Below, one piece after another: positions 4,134-9,326 of a DNA stretch of 64,000 nt. A program made the translations under genes and the position numbers. The stretch is from Microtetraspora fusca. Its GTDB lineage: Bacteria; Actinomycetota; Actinomycetes; Streptosporangiales; Streptosporangiaceae. Location of the stretch: assembly GCF_001570365.1 (NCBI RefSeq), contig NZ_BBYK01000038.1, positions 418,787 through 482,786 on the forward strand. Direction: 5' to 3'. Positions within the stretch are counted from its first letter, which is position 1. Each line of letters starts with the position of its first letter. The notes beneath the pieces were generated by a model, which made no database searches, was not told where the DNA came from, and saw only the letters and a program-made list of their open reading frames with translations.

Positions 4134-4408
4134 CATCGGCGACAATCGCGATCCCGCGACCCGAGCCCCCCTCCGCGCCCGGTGGCGCCGGATCGCGGTA
4201 ACGTGCCGACGCTCTGTTAAGAGTGCGTCACACTCCGTTGATAAGCAATGTCTCACCCTGCAATTGCACAAAGCTGCACATGCGTTCCGCGGAATGCCGG
4301 AACCTCCGGACAGGCCCGGAGCGCGGGGATATTCTCGCGAGGCGGCGCGCTCGTGGACGTTCCCACCCCGTCCGGCGGCGCCGGCGACCCGAGTGCGCGG
4401 AGCGAGCC

Positions 4409-5401
4409 ATGAACACGACGCGAAACGCCGATCGCCTCCAGGCCCTCGGTCTCGGCGAGGCGGAGATCGCCGTGTACACCACGGTGCTGCGGCTGCACCG
4501 CGCCACGCTCGACGAGATCGCCCAGGCCGTGGACGAGCCCGTGGAGAGAGCCGCCGGCCTGCTGGCGACCCTCATCCGGCTCGGCGCGGTGGACGAGGCC
4601 GCCGGGGAGTACCTCGCCCGCCATCCCGCGGCCCCCGTCGGCCGGATGGTCACCGAACGGCTCGCCCTGCTGGCCCTGCAGAGCCGCCAGATCGACGACA
4701 TGCTCGCCGCCGTCGCCGACCTGGCCCATCACTACGACTCCGGCCGCGCGTTCCGTACGGGCGAGCTGCGGGTGCGGTCCCTGACCGGCGCGGACGAGAT
4801 CTACGAGGCGGTGATCGCGCTGGCCGGGCGGGCACCCCGCGCCGAGCTGGTGGCCGCCCTCCCCGACCGGCGCACGGCCGGCGACTTCTTCGAGAAGCAC
4901 ACGGACATGTGGCTCAGCGCGATCAAGGAGGGCGACCTCACCTCGCGCCTGATCGTCCCGGTGTCCGCGCTCGGCGTCCCCGCCTTCCGCGAGGCCGCCG
5001 GGCTCCTCAACCGGGCGGGCGCCGAGGTGCGCTCCCTCGACCAGGTGCCGAGCTGGTTCTTCGCTCTCGGCCACGACGCGGCCGGGCTGCCGGTCCAGTG
5101 GGGCGCCTCGCCTCCCGAACACGCGTACAACTGCTCCCTGGTGCAGTCCCCCGTCGTCGTCGGCGCGCTGCGCGCCCTGTTCACCGAGCTGTGGGGAAGG
5201 GCGGTGCCCGTCGCGCGTCCCGGAGGCGCCCTCCAGGTGCTCCGGCTCGCCGCCCAGGGGCTCTCCGACGAGTCGATCGCCCGGCACCTCGGCCTCTCCG
5301 TCCGCACCGTACGTGCCAGGTTCGCCGAGGCCATCGCCGAGCTGGGCGCCAACTCACGGTTCCAGGCGGGGGTGGAGGCCAGCCGCCGATCCTGGCTCTG
5401 A
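4409..5401 (+). CDS. transcriptional regulator: TrmB-like N-terminus, LuxR-type C-terminal HTH
   Basis: 330-residue predicted cytoplasmic regulator. Residues 1-75 (NADRLQALGLGEAEIAVYTT onward) look like a TrmB-type winged helix. A central region of about 180 residues, perhaps ligand-sensing, follows. The C-terminal 55 residues contain AAQGLSDESIARHLGLSVRT, a LuxR-type recognition helix. The ATG at 4409 is chosen because GGAG precedes it by 6 nt and the domain begins there. No receiver domain or partner kinase is present, so it is an orphan one-component regulator. Its last 16 codons form the first copy of a tandem repeat that continues past the stop codon. Target unknown; the guaB-side promoter is one candidate by position. 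Confidence 0.8.
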   Translation: MNTTRNADRLQALGLGEAEIAVYTTVLRLHRATLDEIAQAVDEPVERAAGLLATLIRLGAVDEAAGEYLARHPAAPVGRMVTERLALLALQSRQIDDMLAAVADLAHHYDSGRAFRTGELRVRSLTGADEIYEAVIALAGRAPRAELVAALPDRRTAGDFFEKHTDMWLSAIKEGDLTSRLIVPVSALGVPAFREAAGLLNRAGAEVRSLDQVPSWFFALGHDAAGLPVQWGASPPEHAYNCSLVQSPVVVGALRALFTELWGRAVPVARPGGALQVLRLAAQGLSDESIARHLGLSVRTVRARFAEAIAELGANSRFQAGVEASRRSWL

Positions 5402-5550: not shown

Positions 5551-5690
5551 TCCTGTCACGCCGGACCCGCGGCCGCATTTCCGGCCCGTTTCCATGCGTA
5601 TTCAACGCCCGGTTAAATGTGAAACACGTGCACCTGTCCGAGTGGGCCCACTTCCGCTCATGGGGGCGGGCAGGGTCATAAGGTGGGATG

Positions 5691-6068
5691 GTGCTGGAAG
5701 ACGTCCCCCGCGACCCCTTCGCGGACGACCCGAACGACCCGTCAGCCGAACTAGGTGAACCCGACGACCAGGAGCCGCTTACCCTCGCCGAACGCGACGA
5801 GGCCCTGACCGACCTCGCCGACGTCGAGGTCTTCCGCTCCCTGCTCGAACCGCAGGGCGTGCTCGGGCTGGTCCTGGACTGTCCCGAATGCGGCGACCAA
5901 CACTACTTCAGCTGGGACCTGCTCCGGGGCAACCTGCGGCAGATGATCGACAACGGGCGGCCTCAGGTCCACGAGCCCGCCTTCCAACCCGACCCCAGCG
6001 ACTACGTGAGCTGGGAGTACGCCCGGGGCTACGTCGACGGCGTGATCGACACAGAAGAGAGCCGCTGA
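5691..6068 (+). CDS. DUF5319 family protein
   Basis: Small acidic actinobacterial protein of unknown function, about 125 residues, matching the family that includes mycobacterial Rv3412, which also lies beside guaB and sigD. It has an acidic N-terminus (DPFADDPNDPSAE), a conserved core LVLDCPECGDQHYFSWDLLR with a single CPxC pair, and a C-terminal SWEYARGYVDGVID. The start may be the ATG at 5688 or, preferred here, the GTG at 5691: a TAAGGT -10-like box ends 6 nt before it, suggesting a leaderless mRNA. The gene is convergent with the sigma operon, and its last 40 bp overlap the anti-sigma ORF on the other strand. Confidence 0.85.
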   Translation: MLEDVPRDPFADDPNDPSAELGEPDDQEPLTLAERDEALTDLADVEVFRSLLEPQGVLGLVLDCPECGDQHYFSWDLLRGNLRQMIDNGRPQVHEPAFQPDPSDYVSWEYARGYVDGVIDTEESR

Positions 6069-6199
6069 CTGTCCACGTCGGCGATCAGCGCGCCGAGCAG
6101 GCGAACGGCGACGTCGCCCGCCTCCCGACCGAGGGCGACGGCCTCCCGCCGGGCCAGCGCGTCCAGAAGGGCATCGGTCCGCGCAACATCCGCATCCAC
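6029..6199 (-). CDS. minimal RsdA-like anti-sigma peptide (56 aa)
   Basis: Short frame directly downstream of the sigma gene, read from GTG at 6199 to TAG at 6029. Residues 5-20 read VARTDALLDALARREA, followed by a D-x-A-x-x-L-L-x-x-L pattern. This matches, from memory, the sigma-binding N-terminus of mycobacterial RsdA (ARTDLLLDALAERE, then DDALAALL). It sits where rsdA sits in Mycobacterium: after the sigma gene, before the convergent DUF5319 gene. Unlike RsdA (about 300 residues with a membrane segment) it has only the sigma-contact helix, so it would be cytosolic. No good Shine-Dalgarno is visible. The frame is continuous with the sigma gene through its TGA. It overlaps the DUF5319 gene by 40 bp. 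Confidence 0.6.
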   Translation of the reverse strand: MDADVARTDALLDALARREAVALGREAGDVAVRLLGALIADVDSQRLSSVSITPST

Positions 6200-6250
6200 T
6201 GCTGCATCGTCGCACGCCGCCGAAGTCGTCGGCGCACGAGGACCGCGAGA

Positions 6251-6907
6251 TCAAGCAATCGATTCCAGATCGGCCATCTGCCTGAGCCTCGTCAGCGCCC
6301 GGTGCTGCGCGACCCGTACCGCGCCCGGGGACATGCCGAGCACGTTTCCGGTCTCCTCCGCCGACAACCCGGACACGACCCGCAGGATCAGCAGCTCGCG
6401 CTGGTTGTCCGGCAGCCGCGACAGCAGCGCCCGCGCGTGCTCCGCCTCGATGTAGCGCACCACCGTCTCCTCCGGCCCCGGGCCGTCGTCCGGCCCGTCC
6501 GGCAGGTCCTGTGTCGGCACGGCGGACCGCACCGAGCTGCGCAGCGCGTCCGCGACCTTGTGCGACGCGATCCCGAACACGAACGACGCGAACGGCCGGC
6601 CCATGTCCCGATAACGCGGCAAGGCCGACAGGACGGCGATGCACACTTCCTGGGCCACGTCGTCGGCGATGTGATAGTGACCGGAAACCCTTCCCAGTCG
6701 CGCACGGCAATAGCGCACCACCATCGGGCGCAGATGCCCCAGAAGCGATTCGATCGCGGTGCGATCTCCCTGTACGGCAAGGCTGGTCAGTTCCCTGAGG
6801 TCGGACTCATCCGATCTCGTCGCAAGCCTTACCCCAGTTGCGGCGTCGGCGACGCGTCCCTCGGTCACGTTAGGCATGATGCCCGCCACGATCGCCCATG
6901 TCGTCAT
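6251..6907 (-). CDS. ECF-type RNA polymerase sigma factor, SigD/ShbA family
   Basis: Sigma factor expected to bind core RNA polymerase and direct it to a specific promoter set. In Streptomyces the ShbA member transcribes the principal sigma gene hrdB; the mycobacterial relative is SigD. 218 residues. Region 2 runs from [15 protein letters not shown] through [15 protein letters not shown] to [19 protein letters not shown]. Region 4 contains [20 protein letters not shown] and [18 protein letters not shown], the -35 recognition helix. The N-terminal 40 residues are poorly conserved, so the true start may be the internal ATG at 6877. Downstream lies the RsdA-like peptide, its probable antagonist. 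Confidence 0.9.
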
Positions 6908-7075
6908 GGTTAACGGCTACGGATTGGTCACATTGACGCGTCGATAACGGGTCGTAATCGATTGAACACAAGAGGGTTTGAATATTTCAGATGAATGGCC
7001 CAATAGGCAATTAGATGTCAGATGTTCGACGCGGCGACGACGCGCCGAGCGGGACTTAGGTTTACCGCAAAAAGA

Positions 7076-7107
7076 AGTACGGCCCCCGCGTCCGCGAGAG
7101 CCGTACT
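7076..7107 (-). terminator. groEL terminator
   Basis: Outer 8-bp stem AGTACGGC/GCCGTACT with an inner CGCG/CGCG pair, followed on the minus strand by TCTTTTTG. Lies about 90 bp past the groEL stop. Confidence 0.75.
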
Positions 7108-7145
7108 GCGCTGTGCTTCTTGGTCGGACCTCCGGCCCGGCATGC

Positions 7146-7167
7146 GTGGGGTGCGGTGGCACCCCAC
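7146..7167 (-). terminator. second hairpin after groEL
   Basis: Perfect 9-bp stem GTGGGGTGC/GCACCCCAC with a GGTG loop between the groEL stop and the terminator at 7076-7107. It has no T-tract, so it probably protects the 3' end or supports the next hairpin. Confidence 0.5.
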
Positions 7168-7195
7168 ACCGATTCTTGCCCGGGCCTACGACCCG

Positions 7196-8827
<1,632 letters not shown>

Positions 8828-8898
8828 TCACGTCTCCTTACGAGAGCGCCGGAGCCCCGGGAACGGGCGTCCCGGGGCTCCTCATGCTTTTGCGCGGC

Positions 8899-9210
8899 CT
8901 ACTTCTCGATGATGGCGAGCACGTCACGGGCCGAGAGCACCAGGTACTCCTCGCCGCCGTACTTGACCTCGGTGCCGCCGTACTTGCTGTAGAGGACGAC
9001 GTCGCCCTCCTTGACGTCGAGCGGAATGCGCTTCTCGCCGTCCTCGTCCCAGTTGCCCGGGCCCACCGCGAGGACCTTGCCCTCCTGCGGCTTCTCCTTG
9101 GCGGTGTCCGGGATGACCAGACCGGAAGCGGTGGTCTGCTCGGCCTCAAGCGGCTGGACCACGATGCGGTCACCAAGCGGCTTAACGGGAACCTTAGTGG
9201 CGGTCGTCAC
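8899..9210 (-). CDS. groES: co-chaperonin GroES
   Basis: 103-residue lid of the GroEL chamber. It shows the family features [16 protein letters not shown], a mobile loop around [19 protein letters not shown], and the C-terminal [16 protein letters not shown]. Start is GTG at 9210, with GGGGAGG 7 nt upstream. First gene of the groES-groEL operon; the promoter and CIRCE operator lie 90-150 bp upstream. Confidence 0.97.
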
Positions 9211-9299
9211 GATCGGACCTCCCCTTCAGATTGCGATGAATGAGCTGAAGAGGCGACCAGCGGCCTGCCGTCGCGGGTGTCAGACCTGCCTCGTCGCTG

Positions 9300-9326
9300 T
9301 TGGCACTCTCGCTAGGCGAGTGCCAA
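9300..9326 (-). promoter_or_regulatory. CIRCE operator (HrcA binding site)
   Basis: TTGGCACTC-N9-GAGTGCCAA, a perfect 9-9-9 inverted repeat matching the CIRCE consensus TTAGCACTC-N9-GAGTGCTAA with one compensated change per arm. It begins 7 bp after the -10 box, so HrcA bound here would block initiation of groES-groEL. Confidence 0.95.

Follow-up and report, generated by a model that had tools for sequence, protein, structure and literature searches.

Does an anti-sigma factor of the RsdA family persist after the loss of its membrane part? This question is raised by a small open reading frame (ORF), here called mini-RsdA, in a 64,000-nucleotide stretch of the genome of the soil actinobacterium Microtetraspora fusca (contig NZ_BBYK01000038.1, positions 418,787 to 482,786; hereafter the window). 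The initial annotation had described a GTG-started frame of 56 residues (6029-6199, minus strand) directly after a SigD/ShbA-like sigma gene, in the same frame as that gene across a TGA and overlapping another gene by 40 bp, and had read it as a membrane-free RsdA-like anti-sigma peptide at an rsdA locus. We found the frame, the shared phase and the overlap as described, the overlap (6029-6068) being with a convergent DUF5319 gene. The locus offers homology to RsdA, rsdA synteny, selection at the codon level, a product with no evident membrane anchor, clustering of the short form in the ShbA tree and a conserved promoter-like element. From these observations we infer that mini-RsdA is translated, binds and inhibits its sigma factor within a loop, and releases it in a mode of its own; that is, it is likely to be a soluble RsdA-derived anti-sigma protein that masks region 4 of the co-expressed ShbA in a cytosolic set-point loop.

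Mini-RsdA is related to the sigma-binding domain of RsdA

The sigma factor is assigned to ShbA by its score of 283.3 bits against NCBIfam NF007230 (cut-off 209), and the order ShbA gene, mini-RsdA ORF, convergent DUF5319 gene is that of an rsdA locus. When the translated peptide, M(V)DADVARTDALLDALARREAVALGREAGDVAVRLLGALIADVDSQRLSSVSITPST, was searched against Pfam, the RsdA sigma-binding family PF16751 was the sole family found up to E=10, with E=2e-5 and 25.2 bits, which is below the curated cut-off of 26.7. The VARTDALL motif pointed out earlier is present, but it begins at residue 4-5, its V codon being GTT and not the start codon. In the 9.0-Mb genome, the mini-RsdA ORF was the best and the sole PF16751 match at E<=0.1, two further matches at E<=10 having E-values of 1.08 and 1.37; by this rather insensitive test, a full-length RsdA does not appear to be kept elsewhere in the genome. 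The model is evidently not very sensitive, since at E<=0.1 it matched none of 14 control genomes, including that of Corynebacterium glutamicum, whose RsdA is known in the literature. All four genomes of the genus matched it, none of them over the curated cut-off, as did 102 of 200 genomes of the GTDB family at E<=0.1, not all at the shbA locus, with 14 of the 200 over the curated cut-off. Scanned singly, 36 of 47 homologues matched PF16751 at E<=0.01, and none matched another Pfam family. NCBIfam returned no family for the peptide, and the touch of a phosphotransferase system (PTS) model by 2 of the 47 homologues (E 0.007) was taken as chance.

A profile of the short forms was aligned by hhalign to the N-termini of 18 long RsdA proteins of the same family (98.0%, E=2.4e-13) and to 15 RsdA N-termini from other families of the class (96.7%, E=3.6e-10). 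The best sequence match in the PDB is 3VEP chain X (Rv3413c), which was found with a 73-aa open frame at E=0.024; the short-form profile also found 3VEP, at E=0.041, the next match being an interferon at 0.69, which gives a measure of the noise. An AlphaFold2 model of the peptide, built from 47 sequences, has two helices (residues 2-16 and 30-47) and a mean predicted local distance difference test (pLDDT) of 78.3. Foldseek, run with this model against 350,542 PDB chains at E<=10, returned two matches only, chains G and X of 3VEP, where RsdA is bound to SigD region 4 (probability 0.94 and 0.90, template modelling (TM) score by query 0.59 and 0.54, E 0.31 and 0.33, values non-significant on their own). 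The likeness of the model to the sigma-bound domain of 3VEP is thus suggestive, and the RsdA chains in that structure comprise 46-47 residues, so mini-RsdA is about the size of a sigma-binding domain. Its maximal 19-residue hydropathy is 1.17, and neither the transmembrane segment nor the outer domain of RsdA was found in it. The sequence comparisons therefore identify mini-RsdA as a homolog of the PF16751 domain and not as a membrane RsdA.

The frame is conserved across Streptosporangiaceae and selected as protein

We compared 81 loci, namely, 80 named Streptosporangiaceae loci and the window, using for the RsdA-like frames a profile built in this analysis, which part of these loci had also seeded. 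By this profile, an RsdA-like frame without an evident membrane segment follows shbA in all 81. The form that had been noted as stripped down in the window is thus indeed so, but the description was too narrow, as it is common to many genera; the novelty lies in a soluble form of a known anti-sigma family. Among the matches listed from titles and abstract openings of the open-licence PMC literature, none dealt with a soluble RsdA or with RsdA in Streptosporangiaceae. Two short-type proteins are longer, those of Nonomuraea endophytica (L094, 244 aa) and Thermocatellispora tengchongensis (L056, 117 aa), which are lengthened by low-complexity insertions before the conserved tail and have no hydrophobic segment.

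In 70 of the 81 loci, the start codon of the RsdA frame is a GTG or TTG that shares bases with the stop codon of the sigma gene (GTGA or TTGA). The 11 exceptions are the window, the four sister Microtetraspora loci, five of Streptosporangium and L068 (CTGA); two further Streptosporangium loci keep the overlap. The five (L081, L087, L088, L089 and L095) carry a short RsdA outside the sigma-stop overlap frame, with an in-frame ATG further downstream, and uncoupling from the sigma stop seems to have happened twice, in Microtetraspora and in Streptosporangium. In the window, a TTGA at the sigma stop is the remnant, as judged from these loci, of the overlapping start. The nearest named relatives are the four Microtetraspora loci (L035, L036, L037 and L102), whose ShbA is 99-100% identical. 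As the initial annotation would predict, the frame and its GTG start are invariant in all five Microtetraspora compared, with no frame-breaking change; the sole indel inside the ORF is of 3 nt. The linker between the sigma stop and the GTG carries indels of 1 nt and 3 nt in the same alignment, and is for this reason probably non-coding.

These data also bear on the earlier suggestion that read-through of the sigma TGA would yield a sigma factor carrying its own inhibitor. The two frames are indeed identical in the window, with one TGA between them, but this is so in 1 of 81 loci only, the RsdA frame lying in frame 2 in 71 and in frame 1 in nine, and the four sister Microtetraspora are set in another frame by linker indels. 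We therefore reject the fusion, which is the least credible of the readings considered. A programmed frameshift leading from the overlapping TTG into the RsdA frame was likewise judged unlikely, because it would have to differ between the sisters and the window (frames 1 and 0).

With the start codon and the final 12 codons excluded, the median pairwise omega of the frame is 0.05-0.42 in nine genus-level sets (62 loci). In seven sets (50 loci), the RsdA frame has a nonsynonymous-to-synonymous (N/S) ratio of 0.12-0.51 and no stops in 7/7, whereas both other sense frames have N/S ratios of at least 1.08 and stops in 7/7, so that the RsdA frame is the sole one both low in N/S and stop-free throughout. 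Among the antisense controls, the wobble-aligned frame is also low (0.32-0.77), yet holds stops, as does a second low frame in Herbidospora (0.49); four stop-free antisense frames have N/S ratios above 1. This pattern of codon substitution indicates that mini-RsdA is a real, conserved coding sequence under protein-level selection, and together with the conservation it makes the ORF more than a chance opening. A decaying remnant of a membrane RsdA, whose open frame is an accident of GC-rich DNA and whose product is neither made nor used any longer, would agree with the small size, the changed start in Microtetraspora and the loss of RsdA from related loci. However, such a remnant is quite improbable given the low omega, a homologue in every one of the 81 loci, the stop-free RsdA frame in all seven sets in which the other sense frames carry stops, and a 3-nt change as the only indel inside the ORF among five Microtetraspora.

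It is very improbable that the frame is a side effect of constraint acting on the DUF5319 gene that it overlaps, or of a nucleic-acid element. The last 12 residues are the antisense of the 3' end of the DUF5319 gene, and that stretch is open also where RsdA is missing, as such a by-product would have it; the helices, however, lie outside the overlap, the selection signal excludes these 12 codons, and Rfam gave two sub-threshold matches in 5600-9300, neither over the ORF, which were taken as chance.

The short form most likely arose once

ShbA was detected at E<=1e-40 in 72 of 80 family genomes, of which 71 were classed: 28 have a short RsdA, 12 a long one with a hydrophobic segment and 29 none, and two are cut by contig ends. 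"None" means no detectable RsdA within about 1.7 kb by our own thresholds, and diverged forms may hide in this class. Hydropathy, a crude test for membrane segments, exceeds 1.6 over 19 residues in 9 of 112 redundant loci, namely, seven long forms of 213-308 aa (L007, L016, L022, L023, L027, L031 and L033) and two short ones (L021, 1.63; L068, 1.81), whose peak we read as an amphipathic helix.

The ShbA tree comprises 123 rows, of which 47 are classed none, 38 long, 36 short and two cut. Two changes account for the short label on it, compared with a mean of 31.4 for shuffled labels, and we read the two as one gain and one loss, the latter at L141/L145. The fork joining the nearest long form, L144, has support of 95/79, and the one that unites L141 and L145 with the short clade has 93/78, both below the program's star. 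L141 (G060) and L145 (G042) lie inside the short clade and keep shbA and the DUF5319 gene while the RsdA motif is gone, and may be regarded as natural knock-outs. Many loci of same-family genera and Streptomyces-like loci (L145-L184 and L207-L217, classed none) keep ShbA with no RsdA-like frame after it, and none of the 10 loci of family f18, taken as probably Streptomyces, has such a frame after the sigma gene. A start overlap at the sigma stop is seen in 10 of the 47 none rows, versus 35 of 36 short and 32 of 38 long rows.

The long form is probably ancestral, since it is also present in nine further families sampled from the class. A tail like SSVSITPST, antisense to the DUF5319 gene (a point missing from the initial annotation), ends the frame in 77 of the 81 loci, all but L079, L090, L092 and L104. 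The same stretch is open in all four "none" loci whose DUF5319 match is full (L141, L145, L149 and L154) and, of 18 long loci tested, in 12. Since it is open without a short RsdA too, the tail reflects the DUF5319 gene, which would most simply mean that RsdA lost its membrane and outer parts by a deletion, through which the frame came to run into its neighbour. A role of the tail as a degron or phosphosite is not supported, given its antisense origin, its openness without RsdA and the four loci that end otherwise. Taken together, these findings make a single origin, in an ancestor of the core Streptosporangiaceae, the most likely history of the short form.

A SigD/ShbA-type promoter-like element precedes shbA

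The pattern GT[AG]AC-N17-CNAT, also new relative to the initial annotation, stands at a fixed position of -24 before shbA in 80 of the 81 loci, whereas 131 of 16,200 random 70-nt windows of the same loci contain it. Of the 80 named loci, 79 carry the 17-mer AATGTGACCAATCCGTA in exact form, the exception being L079 with GTAAC..CGAT, and a longer pattern of the promoter block has one exact place in the genome. Among further loci with enough upstream DNA, 14 of 29 match, 12 of them as GTAAC-N17-CGAT; five same-family long loci (L016, L022, L027, L031 and L033) have no match to the pattern. As excerpted from PMC6338062, Corynebacterium rsdA promoters read GTAAC, 15 nt, CTCGAT, which is the spacing of the shbA element, and the sigma/rsdA pair is under its own sigma factor in Mycobacterium, Nocardia and Rhodococcus. 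The shbA/mini-RsdA pair is thus probably under its own sigma factor and self-regulated, as far as the promoter-like element tells.

Among 27 aligned loci, there is hardly any variation in the sequence that leads up to shbA and covers its first codons. Across genera, this block spans 6847-6965 (minus strand; alignment A8), about 60 nt on either side of the annotated shbA start, and its invariance includes the promoter spacer and third codon positions (GGGCATCATGCCTA). This is beyond what a promoter needs, and may point to a leader or to a second binding site. Since the -10 of the promoter-like element overlaps the annotated first ATG, ShbA may start at codon 11, so that the annotated start (6907) may be too early and the ATG at 6877 the true one.

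In Streptomyces coelicolor, ShbA was active on hrdB and shbA only in vitro, and its control is called unknown, both as given in an excerpt of PMC9205884. The pattern GT[AG]AC-N16-18-[CG]NAT was found within 350 nt upstream of the hrdB-like gene, our own pick among the RpoD-like genes, in none of 14 genomes; a looser pattern, to which we give no weight, was found in six of the 14.

A putative cytosolic set-point loop

In the mechanism we propose, mini-RsdA would consist of little beyond the two-helix domain that grips sigma region 4, the membrane and outer parts of RsdA having been lost and the frame extended until it read into the convergent DUF5319 gene at its 3' end. It would be co-expressed with ShbA, through the stop/start overlap in most species and here from a GTG 51 nt past the sigma stop, and as the promoter of the pair is probably ShbA-dependent, ShbA would make both itself and its own inhibitor. 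Mini-RsdA would hold ShbA by direct masking of sigma region 4. The freeing of SigD from RsdA in corynebacteria is proposed to proceed through MarP and Rip1, followed by ClpXP (PMC11175481, in excerpt). The site-1 and site-2 membrane steps would find no substrate in the soluble form, so its release could not use membrane proteolysis and would instead be set by the sigma/anti-sigma ratio and by turnover through a cytosolic protease. By analogy, mini-RsdA would resemble what remains of RsdA after the membrane cuts. As it has neither Cys nor His among its 56 residues, it cannot act as an RsrA-like zinc switch.

A soluble partner that stabilises or chaperones ShbA, or tethers it elsewhere, with the RsdA grip kept and the inhibition not, would fit the same homology and selection data, and the loss of the sensor half, which leaves no evident off-switch, speaks for it. 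We nevertheless regard this as unlikely, because the title of 3VEP names RsdA a negative regulator of SigD4 and the same two helices are kept, and because deletion of rsdA raises SigD activity in corynebacteria according to the same excerpt of PMC11175481.

Several points weigh against mini-RsdA as an inhibitor of ShbA. The PF16751 score is below the curated cut-off and the sequence matches to 3VEP are weak, while the Foldseek E-values are non-significant and AlphaFold2 may know 3VEP from its training. An AlphaFold2 fold of the sigma factor with the peptide reached a mean pLDDT of 46.7 and was not used; it was made from sigma-only alignment rows (A5), as mixed alignments (A2, A4) placed peptides inside the sigma factor. 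Microtetraspora has lost the overlapping start, no clear Shine-Dalgarno sequence was seen by eye before the GTG at 6199, and the motif loss at L141 and L145 means that mini-RsdA is dispensable in that lineage.

If ShbA drives the principal sigma gene as in Streptomyces, mini-RsdA might govern the amount of the housekeeping sigma factor. Since the dedicated soluble partner has only about 50-75 residues, is conserved in many genera and is devoid of a sensor part, tests with two small proteins are within reach. The locus also offers a clean natural example of a protein from membrane signalling that has lost its membrane part, with long forms still in sister genera, as well as one of a protein tail taken from the antisense strand of a neighbouring gene. 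More tentatively, it is conceivable that, in this whole branch of Streptosporangiaceae, a single truncation of RsdA into a convergent gene turned an envelope-sensing pair into a set-point circuit of two proteins that is self-regulated and purely cytosolic.

Features of the locus

The coordinates are collected in Table 1. At 56 residues and just after a sigma gene, the mini-RsdA ORF is easy to overlook. A regulator gene, whose product has a TrmB-like and a LuxR-type (GerE) helix-turn-helix region, lies at 4223-5401 (plus strand), 286 bp before the DUF5319 gene.

Table 1. Positions of the features of the shbA/mini-RsdA locus in the window
Feature	Position	Strand	Remarks
Mini-RsdA ORF	6029-6199	minus	GTG start 6197-6199, 56 aa, TAG stop 6029-6031
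PF16751 match (RsdA sigma-binding region)	6128-6193	minus	residues 3-24
Predicted helix 1	6152-6196	minus	residues 2-16, DVARTDALLDALARRE helix; AlphaFold2 peptide model
Predicted helix 2	6059-6112	minus	residues 30-47, VAVRLLGALIADVD; AlphaFold2 peptide model
Mini-RsdA C-terminal tail and stop	6029-6068	minus	antisense to 3' end of DUF5319 gene
Linker, sigma stop to mini-RsdA GTG	6200-6250	minus	51 nt
TTGA at sigma stop	6251-6254	minus	out of frame with RsdA in the window
ShbA/SigD-like partner sigma gene	6251-6907	minus	NCBIfam NF007230
Convergent DUF5319 gene	5688-6068	plus	PF17252, E=6.4e-50
SigD/ShbA-type promoter-like element	6906-6931	minus	GTGAC-N17-CCAT; compared with SigD consensus excerpted from PMC6338062

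Comparison with known systems

Mini-RsdA is closest to RsdA (Rv3413c), the SigD anti-sigma factor of PF16751 and 3VEP, with which it appears to share, from sequence and model, the two-helix sigma-binding domain, the place between the sigD/shbA gene and the convergent DUF5319 gene, and a promoter-like SigD element before the sigma gene; it differs in its C-terminal tail, which is antisense to DUF5319. The long membrane RsdA proteins of the same GTDB family (for instance, L007, L016, L144 and L153) have the homologous N-terminal domain and the same gene order, but they comprise 149-397 aa with a hydrophobic segment, compared with about 50-75 aa in most short forms. RsrA, of the zinc-associated anti-sigma (ZAS) group, is also a small anti-sigma factor with no membrane part (PMC4598750, in excerpt); its zinc motif His-X3-Cys-X2-Cys is absent from mini-RsdA, which thus has no thiol switch of this kind. 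Finally, Streptomyces ShbA belongs to the same sigma family NF007230 and acts on its own promoter in vitro; no RsdA-like frame was found after the sigma gene in the f18 loci, which are probably Streptomyces, whereas in M. fusca the sigma factor is directly followed by its putative soluble partner.
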